Positions 24,201 to 29,455 of a stretch of DNA of 64,000 bases are shown here, piece after piece. The position numbers and the translations under genes were made by a program. The DNA comes from Sphingomonas sp. Leaf357 (GTDB lineage: Bacteria > Pseudomonadota > Alphaproteobacteria > Sphingomonadales > Sphingomonadaceae): assembly GCF_001423845.1 (NCBI RefSeq), contig NZ_LMPM01000002.1, positions 186,001 through 250,000 on the forward strand, in the 5' to 3' direction. The notes under the pieces are model-generated. The model was given only the letters and a program-made list of their open reading frames with translations. It did no database searches and was not told the origin of the DNA. Within the stretch, counting starts at the first letter, position 1. Each line of letters opens with the position of its first letter.

Positions 24201-24854
24201 TCAGCCGCGATCGCGACTTAGGCTCTCGACCTCGCCCATGATCGTATCGAGCGCCGTCATGCCAGGCTCATTGCTATGCGTCCGACGCGACGGCAGCGAT
24301 CCGTCACCAAGGATCGTCTCGAGCGCCACGCGACCGCGTGCGACGCGACTCTTGATCGTGCCAACCGCGACGCCGCAGATCTCGGCCGCCTCCTCATAGG
24401 CGAAACCACCGGCCCCCACCAGAATCAGCGCCTCGCGCTGCGGCTGCGGCAGATGCAGCAACGCGCGCTGCATGTCGCCGAGTTCGACATGGCGATCCTG
24501 GCTCGCCGGGGCGGCAAGGATCTTGTCGGCGACAAGATCGTCCCATTCGCCCTTGAAGCGCGCACGGCGCATCTGGCTGAGATACAGGTTGCGCAGGATG
24601 ATGAACGTCCAGGCGCGCATGTTCGTACCGGCCTGGAAGCGCTGCCGCGCGGCCCAGGCCTTCATCAGCGTTTCCTGCACCAGATCGTCGGCGAGATCGC
24701 GGTTGCCGGACAGAGAGCGACCGAAGGCGCGCAGATGCGGAATGACCTGCGCGAGTTCTTTCTTGAACTCGGGATCGGACAACGCGACGTGCTCGACGAC
24801 CTCGTTCGCCGCTTCTGCGCCGACCTCGTCGCCGTTCGTTTCGGATTCAGACAT
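24201..24854 (-). CDS. ecfG: general stress response sigma factor EcfG
   Basis: A 217-residue ECF sigma factor of the EcfG class (region 2: IPHLRAFGRSLSGNRDLADDLVQETLMKAW with RFQAGTNMRAWTFIILRN, and region 4: LPQPQREALILVGAGGFAYEEAAEICGVAVGTIKSRVARGR). It should recruit RNA polymerase to GGAAC-N16/17-CGTT promoters and is released from NepR by phosphorylated PhyR. The assignment is by domain pattern and by sitting in the phyR/nepR locus. ATG at 24854 has the better ribosome site; an ATG at 24875 adds seven residues. The protein has a long acidic N-terminus and a C-terminal extension of about 30 residues beyond region 4. Confidence 0.9.
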   Translation of the reverse strand: MSESETNGDEVGAEAANEVVEHVALSDPEFKKELAQVIPHLRAFGRSLSGNRDLADDLVQETLMKAWAARQRFQAGTNMRAWTFIILRNLYLSQMRRARFKGEWDDLVADKILAAPASQDRHVELGDMQRALLHLPQPQREALILVGAGGFAYEEAAEICGVAVGTIKSRVARGRVALETILGDGSLPSRRTHSNEPGMTALDTIMGEVESLSRDRG

Positions 24855-24945
24855 GAACACCCGCTTTTGCCTCATTCGTACCGGACATAGGGATAAGACC
24901 GGCAGAACGCCAGCACGCCCCCGAAAATCAAACGCTTAGCCTGAT

Positions 24946-25163: not shown

Positions 25164-25970
25164 TCAAAGCGCTGGTACGGTCGCCGAGTCGAAGAACAGT
25201 GCCTGGGCGATCGCCGCCTTGACGGTCGAGCGCTGGAACGGCTTGGTGATCAGGAAGGTCGGCTCGGGCCGCTCGCCTGTCAGCAGGCGCTCCGGAAACG
25301 CGGTGATGAAGATCACCGGCACCTGGAACTCGGCCAGGATGTCCTTCACCGCATCGATGCCCGAGGAATCGTCGGCCAATTGGATGTCGGCCAGCACGAG
25401 ACCGGGGCGATCCTCCATCGCCAGGGCCACGGCCTCGTCGCGCGTCACGGCGACGCCGGTCACCTCATGGCCGAGATCGCGCACGATCGTCTCGATATCC
25501 ATCGCGATCAGCGGCTCGTCCTCGATGATCAGCACACGGGCCCGGGTCTGCTTCTCGATCTCAGCGAGGGCCTCGGCGACCAGCGAGTCGACTTCGGACG
25601 TCTCGACCTCGATCAGATACGCCGCGTCTTCCGGCGTGAAGCCTTCCATCGCGGTCAGCAGCAGCGCCTGACGCGACAGCGGCGTCATCCGCGCCAACCG
25701 CGCCCGCGCGATCGATTCCTGATCGTCACCATCGTCCGCGGATGCGTTTTCCGGCGTCTCGTCATAATTGGTGGAGCCCCAGATCGCCTGGAACATACGA
25801 TACAGCCCGAGCCGGGGATCGACATCGCGGGGGAATTCGTTCGGGGCGGCGACGATCGCTTCCAGCGTGGCGCGGACGTAACGGTCGCCATGCGTCTGGC
25901 TGCCGGTGAGTGCCCGGCCATAGCGGCGCAGGAAGGGGAGATGGGGGGCAAGCTGCTGTCCAAGCGACAT
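25164..25970 (-). CDS. phyR: general stress response regulator PhyR (anti-anti-sigma factor)
   Basis: A 268-residue response regulator with the inverted PhyR architecture: an N-terminal EcfG-like sigma domain (LAPHLPFLRRYGRALTGSQ, then LSRQALLLTAMEGFTPEDAAYLIEV) followed by a receiver domain (ARVLIIEDEPLIAMDIE, phospho-Asp about residue 195 in LVLADIQLADDSSGID, conserved Lys in LITKPF). When phosphorylated, the sigma-like part mimics EcfG and binds NepR, freeing EcfG. It is divergent from nepR, which lies 261 bases away, and the two share the regulatory region between them. Confidence 0.95.
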   Translation of the reverse strand: MSLGQQLAPHLPFLRRYGRALTGSQTHGDRYVRATLEAIVAAPNEFPRDVDPRLGLYRMFQAIWGSTNYDETPENASADDGDDQESIARARLARMTPLSRQALLLTAMEGFTPEDAAYLIEVETSEVDSLVAEALAEIEKQTRARVLIIEDEPLIAMDIETIVRDLGHEVTGVAVTRDEAVALAMEDRPGLVLADIQLADDSSGIDAVKDILAEFQVPVIFITAFPERLLTGERPEPTFLITKPFQRSTVKAAIAQALFFDSATVPAL

Positions 25971-26072
25971 GGCTGTCGGGGTCTCCTGACATGAAAAATC
26001 GCCGTCCTTGTGGAAGCGGCTCCGGTGGTTTGCAATGCGATTCAGTCGTGTGGGAATTTTCGCATCGCAGGT

Positions 26073-26097
26073 GGAACAATCGGCGCGCTATTTGGTT
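26073..26097 (+). promoter_or_regulatory. EcfG-type promoter upstream of nepR, GGAAC-N16-GGTT
   Basis: The -35 element GGAAC (26073-26077) is exact, the spacer is 16 bases and the -10 reads GGTT (26094-26097), three of four consensus bases. It would start transcription near 26104 and make nepR and phyP subject to the sigma factor they restrain, the autoregulation seen in other alphaproteobacteria. Confidence 0.65.
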
Positions 26098-26231
26098 TCA
26101 TGCAGTCGTCGCACGATGTACGTGCGATGAATCGGTGCGTGTCGCGGGCCGGTTTTTTGTCATCTGGCCGATCCCAAGTCGGTGTTTCATATCGTACCCG
26201 GCTGCCGCCGGCGTGTTCAGGGGGGACGGCA

Positions 26232-26420
26232 TTGCGTTCGGGCGACGAGTCTTCAAGATCTTCGAGGAAGCCGGCATCGACCGGAAAGACTCCGGTCGGT
26301 TCCACCAGGGTACAGAGCAAGGATCGCGACATGGGCGCGGCACTGCGCACCGTGTACCAGAAGACCGTGGAAGAAGACATTCCGTCCGACCTGCTCGATC
26401 TTTTGGGTAAACTCGATTGA
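26232..26420 (+). CDS. nepR: anti-sigma factor NepR
   Basis: A small protein, 62 residues if started at the TTG at 26232, which holds EcfG inactive and is captured by phosphorylated PhyR. The conserved family core is clear at the C-terminus: MGAALRTVYQKTVEEDIPSDLLDLLGKLD is an almost ideal NepR signature with its two short helices. The start is uncertain: the TTG is preceded by a GGGGGAC ribosome site and gives the standard length with a polar, disordered N-terminus; the frame continues open upstream with ATG codons at 26100 and 26130. Only seven bases separate its stop from the phyP start. Confidence 0.88.
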   Translation: MRSGDESSRSSRKPASTGKTPVGSTRVQSKDRDMGAALRTVYQKTVEEDIPSDLLDLLGKLD

Positions 26421-26427
26421 CCGGATA

Positions 26428-28056
26428 GTGAACGACCACAGCGTTACGGGCCAGCCCGCAGAGACACGTCCCCTGTCCGGCACGGTCGGCAATATCCCCC
26501 TCCGATCCTCCCTGTTCGTCGCCGCGATTCCGACCGGCGCCAAAGTTTTCCTGATCCTGAGCGCGGCCTTGCTGCCGCTGGCCGTGATCGCCTTCTTCGC
26601 CACGCTGAACACCGCGCAGAACGCTACGGCGGATGCGCGGGCCCGGGTGCGAGTCGCGTCCTCCGAAACTGCGCGCCGCCTCGCGATCGAGATGATCGGC
26701 GACATGACCGCATTGCGCGTCGCGCTCAATGCTTTGGACAGCGATGCCGGCGACGCCCCGAGTTGCGCCCGCGCGCAGGGCGTGTTCGCGCAGCAGGCGG
26801 CCAGCGGCACGCGCTTCGCGATCATCGACGCCAACCGGCGGGTGCTGTGCGGCACCGCGCTGCCATCCGATCTCACCTTGCTCGCCGCCCCTGGCACCGC
26901 ACAGATCGCGGCGCGCGTCGTTCCCGGTAAGGGCGTCGTGCTGGCGATCGGCGGCAATCGCAGCGGGGCGAGCGCCAACGCCTTCTTCCCGGCCCGCTTC
27001 CTCGCCGACATCGGCCAGCCGAGCGGATTTCCGATCCCGTTCGAAACCCGCCTGGCGCAGGGCGATGTCGAACTGACCCTGACTCCCCTGCCCGACCGCG
27101 CCACGCTGGAACGACGCGAGACACAGCGGATCGCGCTCGGCCTCGGGGATCTCGATCTCGAGATGACGATCCGCAGCCAGCCGATCACGCCGCCGGTGTT
27201 GATCGCCTTGCTGTTCCCGATCCTGATGTGGTTCGCCGCCGCCAGCATCGGCTGGTTCATCGTCGATCGTCTGCTGATCCGTCCCCTGCGTCGCCTGCGC
27301 ACCGCGGTCGCTGCCTATGTGCCGGGCGAGGAGATCGATCCCGAAGAGGTCCGTGCCCTCCCCGCGCAGGAAATTCGCGAACTGGGCGACACGTTCCGCA
27401 ACATCAGCCGCACCGTCGCCACGCACGAGGCCGGGCTGGCCGAGGGGCTCGTGCGCCAGACCAAGTTGACGCGCGAGGTGCATCATCGCGTGAAGAACAA
27501 TCTTCAGGTCATCTCCAGCCTGATCAATTTCCACGCCCGCAGCGCCAAATCGGTCGAGGCGAGCGCGGCCTATGCGGGCATCCAGCGTCGCGTCGATGCG
27601 CTGGCCGTCGTCCACCGCCACCATTTCGCCGAGATGGAGGAGCATCGCGGCCTGTCGCTGCGCTCGGTGATCGGTGAACTCGCCTCCAACATCCGCGCGA
27701 CCGCGCCCGACAATTCTTCCGGCCTTGGGATACTGCTCGATGTCGAACCGTGGCTGGTCAATCAGGATATCGGCATCGCCGTCGCCTTCCTGATCACCGA
27801 GATCGTCGAGCTGGCGATGAGCTGCAATCCGGCCGCGCAGATCCGCATATCGGTCAAACCGGGCGAGACGGAGGAGCGCGCGGTGCTCCGGATCAGTTCG
27901 CCATCGCTGATCGATTGCGATGCGTTGCAGGGCGCGATCAAGGATCGCTACGGCCGCGTTATGGAAGGCCTGTCGCGCCAATTGCGGTCGAAGCTGCACC
28001 ACGATCCGCTGATCGGCGCCTATGAAATCACCATCGCGGTGATCGGGCGCGACTGA
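26428..28056 (+). CDS. phyP: PhyP-type HisKA_2 sensor kinase/phosphatase with degenerate ATPase domain
   Basis: A 542-residue membrane sensor. It has two transmembrane helices (about residues 38-58 and 258-280) flanking a periplasmic sensor, a HAMP-like stretch (DRLLIRPLRRLRTAV), and a HisKA_2 dimerisation domain with the conserved block REVHHRVKNNLQVISSLINFHAR (acceptor His near 353). The following catalytic domain is poorly conserved: the N-box position reads ITEIVELAMSCN and I see no DxGxG or GxGL glycine boxes. In Sphingomonas the protein in this position, PhyP, keeps PhyR unphosphorylated, and loss of ATP binding fits that role. GTG at 26428 is chosen as start; it is coupled to nepR. Confidence 0.85.
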   Translation: MNDHSVTGQPAETRPLSGTVGNIPLRSSLFVAAIPTGAKVFLILSAALLPLAVIAFFATLNTAQNATADARARVRVASSETARRLAIEMIGDMTALRVALNALDSDAGDAPSCARAQGVFAQQAASGTRFAIIDANRRVLCGTALPSDLTLLAAPGTAQIAARVVPGKGVVLAIGGNRSGASANAFFPARFLADIGQPSGFPIPFETRLAQGDVELTLTPLPDRATLERRETQRIALGLGDLDLEMTIRSQPITPPVLIALLFPILMWFAAASIGWFIVDRLLIRPLRRLRTAVAAYVPGEEIDPEEVRALPAQEIRELGDTFRNISRTVATHEAGLAEGLVRQTKLTREVHHRVKNNLQVISSLINFHARSAKSVEASAAYAGIQRRVDALAVVHRHHFAEMEEHRGLSLRSVIGELASNIRATAPDNSSGLGILLDVEPWLVNQDIGIAVAFLITEIVELAMSCNPAAQIRISVKPGETEERAVLRISSPSLIDCDALQGAIKDRYGRVMEGLSRQLRSKLHHDPLIGAYEITIAVIGRD

Positions 28057-28101
28057 AACCGGGATGGCGCGAAAAAAGATTCGGTTTTTGTAAGAATCGT
28101 C

Positions 28102-28126
28102 GGAACCGATTTTTGTGAAGCCCGTT
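28102..28126 (+). promoter_or_regulatory. perfect EcfG promoter, GGAAC-N16-CGTT
   Basis: GGAAC at 28102-28106, a 16-base spacer and CGTT at 28123-28126 match the EcfG consensus exactly. The predicted transcription start is about 28132-28134. No open reading frame begins here; the transcript would begin at the first of two stable hairpins, so it most likely drives a small RNA (and possibly a long leader for the entericidin-like gene). Confidence 0.85.
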
Positions 28127-28132
28127 ATAGTC

Positions 28133-28230
28133 TTCGGATAGCGAATTTATGCCCCCCCGCTCTCGCTATCCAAGACATGGGCCCGGAAGCGTCTACCCTC
28201 CCCCCCCCGGAGGCGCTTCCGGGCCCAATA
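28133..28230 (+). ncRNA. candidate EcfG-dependent small RNA with two cytosine-rich hairpin loops (GsrN-like)
   Basis: Directly downstream of the perfect EcfG promoter. Hairpin 1: GATAGCGA (28137-28144) pairs with TCGCTATC (28163-28170) and its loop contains seven consecutive C (28152-28158). Hairpin 2: GGGCCCGGAAGCG (28179-28191) pairs with CGCTTCCGGGCCC (28214-28226); inside it CCTCC and GGAGG can pair, leaving a loop of C. Exposed C-rich loops on an EcfG-class-controlled RNA are the hallmark of Caulobacter GsrN, which base-pairs with G-rich ribosome sites such as that of katG. The 3' end is approximate; no U tract follows hairpin 2, so the RNA may be processed from a longer transcript. Strand is fixed by the promoter. 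Confidence 0.65.
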
Positions 28231-28292
28231 ACTTTCCGACATCGCAAACTCCTTACCGTGCCGCCGGTCGTCGTAAATGTCGCGTCGTGTCC

Positions 28293-28317
28293 GGAACGAA
28301 CCGACGACCCGATCATT
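28293..28317 (+). promoter_or_regulatory. EcfG-type promoter upstream of the entericidin-like gene, GGAAC-N16-CATT
   Basis: GGAAC (28293-28297) is exact, the spacer is 16 bases and the -10 reads CATT (28314-28317), three of four consensus bases. The predicted start near 28324 leaves a leader of about 35 bases with an AAGGAG ribosome site ahead of the lipoprotein ATG. Confidence 0.7.
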
Positions 28318-28493: not shown

Positions 28494-28519
28494 GCTTTCG
28501 GCTCTGGCCGAAACAGGAA

Positions 28520-28547
28520 AGGCCCTCTCCCACCCGGGAGGGGGCCT
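28520..28547 (+). terminator. intrinsic terminator of the entericidin-like gene
   Basis: A 12-bp stem with one wobble pair (AGGCCCTCTCCC / GGGAGGGGGCCT) and loop ACCC is followed by TCTTCATT. It begins 26 bases beyond the stop codon. Confidence 0.8.
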
Positions 28548-28631
28548 TCTTCATTGTCGGCGACCTTCTCGGAAGTACGCTTCACATCTCCGTTTGACCC
28601 CGAGCTGGTCGACGGGGATGCCCCGATCCCG

Positions 28632-28666: not shown

Positions 28667-29455
28667 TCAGACCCCCTCGGACGCCTCGGGCGTTTCCGCC
28701 GCAACCTTCGCGCGCTTGCGCTCGGTGAACCAGATCCCGATCAGCGCCATTTCGTAGAGCAGCACCAGCGGGATCGCGAGCAGCAGCTGCGAACCCACAT
28801 CCGGCGGCGTCAACACCGCCGCGATCGCGAACGCCGCGACGATCGCGTAGCGCCGCGCCGCGACCAATTGCTTGCGCGTCACGATGCCGGCACGCTCCAG
28901 CAGCATCAGCAGCACCGGTAGCAGAAACGACAGGCCGAACGCGAACAGGAACTGCATGACGAACGAGAGGTAGCTTGTCACCGTCGGCAGTGCCTCCTGG
29001 CGGATGCCGCCAAGATCGCCCTGATAGGAGAGCAGGAATTTGAGCGCCATCGGAACGGCGATGAAATACGCCATCGACGCGCCGGCGATGAACAAGACCG
29101 GCGTGGCGAGCAGGAACGGCAGCAAGGCGCGCTTCTCCTGACGGTACAGGCCGGGCGCGACGAATTGCCACAATTGGTTGGCGATCACCGGAAACGACAT
29201 CATCATCGCGGCGAAGAACGCCACCTTCACCTGCACCAGGAAGCCGCCGAACACTTCGGTGGAGATGATCGTCTTCTGCCCCGCCATCACCAGTGGATGC
29301 ACCAGGAACGCGAAGATCGGGCGCGAGAAATAGAAGCCGATCAGGAACGTCAGCAGCATCGCCACCGCGCAATACAGCAGCCGGCGGCGCAGTTCGATCA
29401 GATGATCGAGCAGCGGCGCACGCGACGCGTCGATCTCGCTCACATCGTCGCTCAC
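28667..29455 (-). CDS. tatC: Sec-independent protein translocase subunit TatC
   Basis: A 262-residue six-helix membrane protein, the receptor for twin-arginine signal peptides. Family landmarks: LLDHLIELRRRLLYC at the N-terminus, the FLVQVKVAFFAAMMMSFPVIANQLWQFVAPGLYRQEKR region, the VPMALKFLLSYQG stretch, and the final helices with FLLPVLLMLLERAGIVT and ATAVLTPPD-like PPDVGSQLLLAIPL. GTG at 29455 overlaps the tatB stop by four bases (GTGA). It is the last gene of the leftward tatA-tatB-tatC operon. Confidence 0.95.
   Translation of the reverse strand: MSDDVSEIDASRAPLLDHLIELRRRLLYCAVAMLLTFLIGFYFSRPIFAFLVHPLVMAGQKTIISTEVFGGFLVQVKVAFFAAMMMSFPVIANQLWQFVAPGLYRQEKRALLPFLLATPVLFIAGASMAYFIAVPMALKFLLSYQGDLGGIRQEALPTVTSYLSFVMQFLFAFGLSFLLPVLLMLLERAGIVTRKQLVAARRYAIVAAFAIAAVLTPPDVGSQLLLAIPLVLLYEMALIGIWFTERKRAKVAAETPEASEGV

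Follow-up and report, generated by a model that had tools for sequence, protein, structure and literature searches.

A conserved, putatively EcfG-transcribed small RNA with two C-rich loops in the general stress response locus of sphingomonads

Within the general stress response (GSR) locus of a sphingomonad genome we have delineated an RNA of about 105 nt, composed of two hairpins, which by the comparative evidence assembled here is real, conserved and noncoding, and which is very probably a small RNA (sRNA) gene transcribed by EcfG. The reading that we consider likely is that it is a separate sRNA gene of the sphingomonad general stress response, that EcfG directs its transcription, and that its C-rich loops pair with G-rich sites of mRNAs encoded in trans. 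An initial annotation of the window (the whole 64-kb stretch of DNA that was analysed) had suggested an unannotated stress sRNA behind phyP, and this suggestion is now backed by conservation, covariation in the stems, a footprinted promoter and a maintained gene order.

Results

The stress locus around the RNA

Domain matches place ecfG, phyR and nepR at 24-28 kb of the window (Table 1), and it is established for the general stress response system that PhyR releases EcfG from NepR. The kinase gene upstream of the RNA is called PhyP/PhyT-like from its domains and its position. The gene order PhyP - RNA - entericidin - TatC is common, entericidin being present in 60 and TatC in 56 of the 70 genomes whose flanks were read, some of these flanks ending at a contig edge; a PhyP homologue lies upstream in 66 of the 70, and the RNA thereby shares with GsrN, the C-loop sRNA of Caulobacter, a position close to the GSR locus. 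Directly 3' of the entericidin gene there is a strong terminator-like hairpin of 13 bp (28519-28548), which is probably the end of the entericidin transcript.

Table 1. Features in and around the RNA, with positions in the window, strand and supporting evidence
Feature	Position	Strand	Evidence
ecfG-type sigma factor gene	24201..24875	-	Sigma70_r2 and Sigma70_r4_2 domains; GSR-locus position
phyR	25164..25970	-	PhyR_sigma2, PhyR_sigma-like and Response_reg domains; 61% identity with PhyR of PDB 3n0r
NepR anti-sigma factor gene	26331..26420 (conserved part of ORF 26010-26420)	+	PF18557, E 7.1e-8
PhyP/PhyT-like HWE/HisKA_2 kinase gene	26419..28056 (putative start codon)	+	PF07568 and PF07536
Upstream A/T-rich (UP-like) element, weakly conserved	28083..28090	+	columns -49 to -42, 0.26-0.58 bits, n=170
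EcfG -35 element GGAAC	28102..28106	+	read in sequence; 1.60-1.66 bits per column over 170 members
EcfG -10 element CGTT, N16 after the -35	28123..28126	+	N16-CGTT in 128/170, another accepted variant in 41 more
Small RNA	28132..28237 (model bounds; predicted start +/-2 nt, end about 28236)	+	models R1 and R2 match
Hairpin 1, 9-bp stem, C7 apical loop	28136..28171	+	9/9 pairs changed on both sides, 99.0% of cells paired
Hairpin 2, 15-bp stem, C-rich loop, probable intrinsic terminator	28179..28226	+	15/15 pairs changed on both sides, 94.8% of cells paired
T-rich tail	28227..28237	+	mean 5.6 T in the 14 nt after stem 2 vs 2.7 in nt 31-44 (n=129)
Entericidin gene's own EcfG-like promoter (GGAAC-N16-CATT)	28293..28317	+	read in sequence
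Entericidin EcnA/B-like lipoprotein gene, 44 aa	28359..28493	+	PF08085, E 7e-7
tatC, conserved downstream neighbour	28667..29455	-	PF00902

Conservation and distribution

A 304-nt query taken from around the RNA matched 100 of the 101 genomes of the genus (E <= 0.001) and all 88 of those of good quality, the sole miss being a genome 84% complete and split over 610 contigs; most of these matches span just the RNA and its adjoining flanks. Covariance model R1, built from an alignment of 29 genus sequences (A1), matched 67 of 199 genomes and 37 of 96 genera in the family (E <= 0.01), 23 of 147 genomes in the order, where the only match outside the family (G312, E 0.024) does not resemble the RNA, and 3 of 385 genomes in the class, two of them of the same genus and one weak (E 0.099); these counts are lower bounds, because the first pass scores few candidates per genome. 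The 132 of 199 family genomes in which R1 found no match are explained in part by limited sensitivity and in part by differences between lineages.

The set of 170 genomes used for the promoter comprises the 100 genus matches to the query and 70 from the covariance-model searches of family and order. From the 67 family matches we left out G122, at a contig edge, and the weak G278 and G169; weak matches that came second or lay on the opposite strand were likewise omitted, and so were G312 and G395, also weak, and L031, L033 and L061, which duplicate other genomes. A second covariance model, R2, built from 130 members (alignment A2), was applied to 32 genomes of the family in which nothing had matched before; 14 gave E <= 1, and four of these (L520, L521, L534 and L524) were accepted by promoter and position. 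L523, a weak R2 match that adjoins tatC, has no promoter and was rejected. In L524, at 45% G+C, the order PhyP - RNA - entericidin, two C-loops and a T7 tail are all retained, and an EcfG-like promoter (AGTT) ends 14 nt before the model start.

The core motif was present in at least 120 named public records, those listed including Sphingomonas, Stakelama, Sphingosinicella, Hephaestia, Sphingorhabdus, Parasphingopyxis and Sphingomicrobium, together with metagenome bins labelled Sphingomonadaceae, Sphingomonadales, Alphaproteobacteria, Proteobacteria or uncultured bacterium. No Rfam 15 family reached its threshold anywhere in the window, and a covariance model is now available for this RNA, which none of those families covers at threshold.

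The EcfG promoter of the RNA

The initial annotation had read an exact GGAAC-N16-CGTT at 28102-28126, and the letters agree. This is the EcfG consensus given for Sphingopyxis granuli, where in vitro a CGTT -10 element yielded more transcript than CATT or TGTT (as reported in the relevant passages of PMC7083833). The exact promoter (spacer 16-17) matches the 64-kb window once against 0.81 matches expected by chance; a single match at about chance level means that the case rests on conservation.

Conservation is pronounced. The promoter, taken as GGAAC, a spacer of 16 or 17 and an accepted -10, stands before the RNA in 169 of the 170 genomes, the exception being L072, and in 169/170 it keeps a distance of 4-8 nt to the RNA while the sequence of the spacer drifts. 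Its variants are 16-CGTT (128 genomes), 16-GGTT (18), 16-TGTT (14), 17-CGTT (6), 16-AGTT (2) and 16-CATT (1); as background, the same motif with a [CTG]GTT -10 occurs 9 times on the same strand of 281,692 flanking bases. Over the 170 members, columns -30 to -25 (GGAACC) hold 1.28-1.66 bits, columns -9 to -6 (CGTT) 0.94-1.76 bits and a T at column -4 0.84 bits, the spacer columns staying at or below 0.35 bits. By this alignment the promoter of the RNA is phylogenetically footprinted, and at the level of the motif (169/170 genomes) the RNA has the EcfG/SigT-class promoter that is a trait of GsrN. The window stretch 28083-28090, which corresponds to the UP-like element, is T-rich, and by eye an imperfect direct repeat (GGTTTTTGTAAGAATCG / CCGATTTTTGTGAAGCCCG) can be seen around the -35 element, within 28083-28125.

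Hairpins, C-loops and 3' end

Stem 1 pairs GGATAGCGA (28136-28144) with TCGCTATCC (28163-28171) and encloses a C7 run at 28152-28158. Stem 2 pairs 28179-28193 with 28212-28226, including one G-U pair; the shorter arms GGGCCCGGAAGCG/CGCTTCCGGGCCC of the initial annotation lie inside it, and a C9 run occupies 28200-28208. The folded stretch 28127-28240 reaches -58.5 kcal/mol (z = -8.4), a stability equalled by none of 200 shuffles.

From the structure alignment (A2) L148, cut by a contig end, was omitted, and filtering the other 169 members to <93% identity left 130. Changes on both sides occur at all 24 stem pairs (n=130), and 317 compensatory cells were counted against 51.5 (sd 17.1) in shuffled and at most 55 in slid controls, with 96.4% of cells paired; since the structure was taken from the window sequence, it is favoured over its slid versions in paired cells, and to a smaller degree in compensatory changes. 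Two hairpins with C-rich loops had been claimed from the single sequence, as had their dependence on conservation in related genomes, and on both counts the proposal is strengthened: the C7 and C9 runs are there, and the hairpins are strongly conserved (100 of 101 genus genomes) and covarying (24 of 24 pairs).

Despite the changes in the stems, loop 1 holds a run of at least six C in 129 of the 130 members, which gives the RNA the exposed 5' C-rich loop of GsrN, and loop 2 holds at least five in all 130, with CCTCC in the loop of hairpin 2 in 96. Loop 1 is near-invariant, and the longest C-run ranges from C4 to C10 in the loop-1 part and from C4 to C14 in the hairpin-2 part, varying by single bases. 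The statement that no reading frame fits the RNA holds only in part: ATG-initiated frames do cross it, but an ATG in the loop occurs in only 52 of the 130 aligned members, and together with the single-base variation of the C-runs this makes a coding sequence very unlikely.

Conservation and T-richness cease about 10 nt 3' of stem 2, near 28236, and the next 35 nt are background. A T-rich stretch followed by unconserved sequence fits an intrinsic terminator and suggests that the transcript ends after hairpin 2; the 3' end, which had been called unclear, is by this drop settled in part. The tail in the window is TTT only, and a scan of the window for terminators did not report that of the RNA. 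The longest T run is 1-2 in 40 of 129 members, and with a U-tract so short in many of them termination may be inefficient. A length of about 105 nt and a terminal hairpin would fit the size and hairpin of GsrN; the tail is T-rich on average but short in the window and in many members.

Comparison with GsrN

GsrN is known for Hfq-dependent stability, cleavage to a 5' isoform and a role in peroxide survival. Passages of PMC5869019 describe GsrN (CCNA_R0081) as acting via the tandem C of its 5' loop on G-rich mRNA, as findable by BLAST in the Caulobacteraceae near the GSR locus and best conserved in its C-rich loop, and they already make the case for a wide occurrence of EcfG-controlled C-loop sRNAs across the class. 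GsrN-type genes were located here via a match adjoining phyR in genome G676. Only to spot this match did we make use of a class-wide pattern, GGAACN{16,17}BGTTN{10,40}CCCCCC, which was otherwise rejected, occurring in 97 of 385 genomes and thus at about the frequency of its backwards control. The PhyR of G676 shares 81% identity with the PhyR of PDB 3n0r, which we take to be the Caulobacter protein. BLAST matches of the GsrN type were found in 59 of 99 genomes of G676's family, and 28 of the 30 loci read have both an EcfG-type promoter and a C-run, the other two having a short or misplaced flank. These genes are called GsrN by the description in passages of PMC5869019, not by comparison with the GsrN sequence printed there.

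Reciprocal covariance-model searches did not link the two RNAs by sequence and structure. At the GsrN of G676, R1 scored 12.2 bits (E 0.64, not significant), and R2 did not list that gene at E values up to 10. Model R3 was built from the 28 GsrN sequences (A3; L550 and L557, with a short and a misplaced flank, omitted) and finds GsrN in L363 (118.6 bits) and L364 (98.3 bits). A search of this sort across sphingomonads had been proposed as a check in the initial annotation, and it went against homology: on 24 chosen sphingomonad loci R3 gave no significant match, its best at the RNA (16.8 bits, E 0.03, at hairpin 2 of L041) being outscored by an unrelated match in L178 (18.4 bits), and on the window it found nothing at the RNA.

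The two RNAs nonetheless have much in common. In both, a promoter of the EcfG/SigT type precedes the RNA start by about 31 nt, both measure about 105-115 nt with a C-run 17-24 nt from the 5' end and a terminal hairpin, and both lie at the GSR locus. They differ in fold and in place. Folding of two GsrN sequences placed the C-run in an asymmetric internal loop and gave the terminator a short loop lacking such a run, whereas the sphingomonad RNA carries its C-run in the apical loop of a simple hairpin and has a C-rich terminator hairpin; gsrN adjoins phyR in G676 and G463, whereas the sphingomonad RNA occupies the gap between PhyP and entericidin. The earlier label of GsrN-like therefore stands by analogy (EcfG promoter, GSR locus, about 105 nt, C-run at about nt 20) and not by homology.

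That the RNA and Caulobacter GsrN are true orthologues which have diverged strikes us as improbable. It would account for the shared promoter class and its spacing to the start, the length, GCCCCCCCG at about nt 17-20 and the GSR-locus position, but the reciprocal models are not significant, and the placement of the C-run, the terminator loop and the position in the locus all differ. By these comparisons the RNA is of the same kind as GsrN and probably of another family; we regard it as representing a new family of such sRNAs, one with an additional C-loop. Erythrobacter litoralis is a Sphingomonadales species. The figure 9 legend of PMC5869019 gives this outgroup as having no apparent gsrN-like gene.

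Proposed action and candidate targets

In the mechanism that we propose, EcfG, set free from NepR by PhyR, would direct RNA polymerase to GGAAC-N16-CGTT, transcription would start at about 28131-28133 (range 28130-28134), and an RNA of about 105 nt would end at hairpin 2. The RNA would display loop 1, typically UUNUGCCCCCCCGCUC, and a second C-rich loop, often with CCUCC, in the terminator hairpin. Most likely the C-loops would pair with mRNAs encoded in trans, at G-rich stretches located at ribosome-binding sites or in leaders, and pairing would alter the translation or stability of these targets under stress, as with Caulobacter GsrN. By analogy, such C-loop pairing is a plausible mechanism.

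Candidate targets were approached through the leaders of three genes. katG was found in 41 of 41 genomes. The katG of the window's own genome has no run of five or more G near its start, and among its relatives such a run occurs within 330 nt upstream of the match in 5 of 30 and close before the start in L411 alone, a count that takes a G-tract as its only criterion and in which L397 is misplaced owing to a truncated locus. In this the sphingomonads differ from GsrN, since judged by the presence of a G-tract their katG leaders have no conserved pairing site. Runs of five or more G were seen at flgC in 3 of 29 and at nuoF in 7 of 30, the own genome included, so that no conserved G-tract is apparent there either. 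A count over the whole of the own genome (G000) gave 129 sites for G6-N3-12-ATG and 42 for the pattern read backwards; ribosome-binding sites could suffice to produce this excess, and we do not count it as support. By eye, several of the frames after these G6-N3-12-ATG sites start with signal-peptide-like sequence.

It could be argued that the RNA mainly binds a protein or sponges G-rich RNA, rather than pairing with mRNA leaders, which we judge unlikely. Loop 1 is conserved past its C-run, with UUNUG before and GCUC after it, and the lack of a conserved G-tract in katG, flgC and nuoF points the same way, but these are three candidates only. GsrN, moreover, a C-loop sRNA of known action, pairs with G-rich mRNA (according to passages of PMC5869019).

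Independence from the neighbouring genes

We hold it to be very unlikely that the RNA is a long structured 5' leader, with the EcfG promoter driving entericidin and the hairpins regulating it in cis. The entericidin gene is indeed the next one, on the same strand and about 200 nt downstream in the 60 of 70 genomes that have it. It has, however, an EcfG-like promoter of its own. Of the 170 genomes, 133 have such a promoter in the first 220 nt past the RNA (with CATT in 122), and counting only genomes whose sequence reaches that far the figure is 133/168; the chance expectation, taken from upstream flanks, is 0.005 per 220 nt. Entericidin would thus not depend on the promoter of the RNA, read-through being possible, and the RNA is most probably not its leader. 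In five loci of one genus (g78) the order is PhyP - RNA - TatC, TatC ending close behind the RNA, and the RNA is kept with no detectable entericidin gene. Taken with the end of conservation past hairpin 2, the separate promoter and these five loci make the RNA most likely a transcription unit of its own.

Equally, it is highly unlikely that the RNA is the 3' region of the phyP mRNA, with hairpin 2 mainly a phyP terminator and the hairpins shielding the 3' end, for although phyP ends on the same strand at 28056 and the scan found no other terminator before the RNA, the EcfG promoter motif stands just 5' of the hairpins in 169 of 170 genomes, and a near-invariant loop combined with weak conservation upstream of the promoter is unlike a mere terminator. 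The roles of sRNA and of phyP terminator can, of course, coexist.

Discussion

Searches of open-access papers yielded no description of the sphingomonad RNA; given this scope, it may have been sighted earlier in a data table, be it in a supplement, in a subscription paper or in the 2018 sRNA paper on Sphingopyxis granuli TFA (cited in PMC7083833). In their main texts, the papers on the EcfG regulons of Sphingomonas melonis Fr1 and Sphingopyxis granuli TFA treat protein genes only, and the terms 'sRNA' and 'small RNA' are absent there. If confirmed, the sRNA would add a post-transcriptional arm to the stress response of these environmentally and agriculturally important sphingomonads, and Sphingomonas melonis Fr1, already established for genetics, would allow it to be tested. 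It would also offer a clear example of sRNAs in which promoter, locus and C-loop are retained and the remaining sequence changes.

In stress sRNAs such as RsaE and the CcsR/Cuckoo RNAs, pairing with Shine-Dalgarno regions has been proposed for loops that are C-rich or contain CCUCC. These RNAs differ from the sphingomonad RNA in sigma factors, hosts and gene neighbours. The Rhizobiaceae and other predicted GsrN-like RNAs have an EcfG promoter, a place in the GSR locus and an exposed C-rich 5' loop, a likeness that goes by their description in passages of PMC5869019. Scr3202, an sRNA of Streptomyces (RF02833), also has two hairpins, each with a C-rich loop, and its model aligns end to end (1-95) with 28132-28230 at 34.2 bits, where the gathering score is 52. 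This amounts to E 0.0022 in 321 bases, and in a 30-kb search 4 of 10 loci matched at E 0.12-0.52, among them L001, the window's own locus. Homology was rejected, the score being below the Rfam gathering score and the phylum another, and the likeness is best read as convergence or composition.

Further C-loop elements came to light at other GSR loci. In three genomes of the family that gave no match to the window RNA (G114, G202 and G141, from two further genera), GGAAC-N16-CATT adjoins phyR (L572:7823, -; L573:8891, +; L574:8956, +) and precedes a hairpin whose loop, CCCCCC(C)TCCCGTCC, holds a run of C6-7, as well as a strong terminator. From its sequence this element, which so far resists alignment, looks like a third EcfG-controlled C-loop sRNA family.

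The combination of an EcfG promoter, a run of at least five C within about 75 nt and a terminator was then counted at 23 GSR loci, namely L572-L574 and a hand-picked 20 of the 58 genomes beyond the family in which PhyR was matched, one of these 20 being shortened by its contig. It was present in 9 of 23, by criteria fixed post hoc on loci already inspected, and 29 controls with a permuted -35 gave a mean of 0.03 loci and at most 1. One of the nine, G507, is less convincing by eye. It is tempting to suggest, tentatively and as a possibility that we would not yet favour, that an EcfG-controlled C-loop sRNA is a near-fixed component of the GSR whose sequence is replaced from lineage to lineage, and that in sphingomonads the two loops, the second of them inside the terminator, match Shine-Dalgarno sequences and provide EcfG with a global switch of translation. 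If so, promoter, C-run and locus would persist in the Caulobacteraceae, in Sphingomonas and its relatives and in L572-L574 while the sequence of the sRNA turns over.

Finally, the Caulobacteraceae-like genome G676 has a stretch with two hairpins and two C-runs (L363:7772-7857, +), matched by R2 at E 0.0013. It sits after an entericidin gene with an EcfG promoter, no EcfG promoter of its own having been found, and it may be a homologue, a terminator or a chance match.
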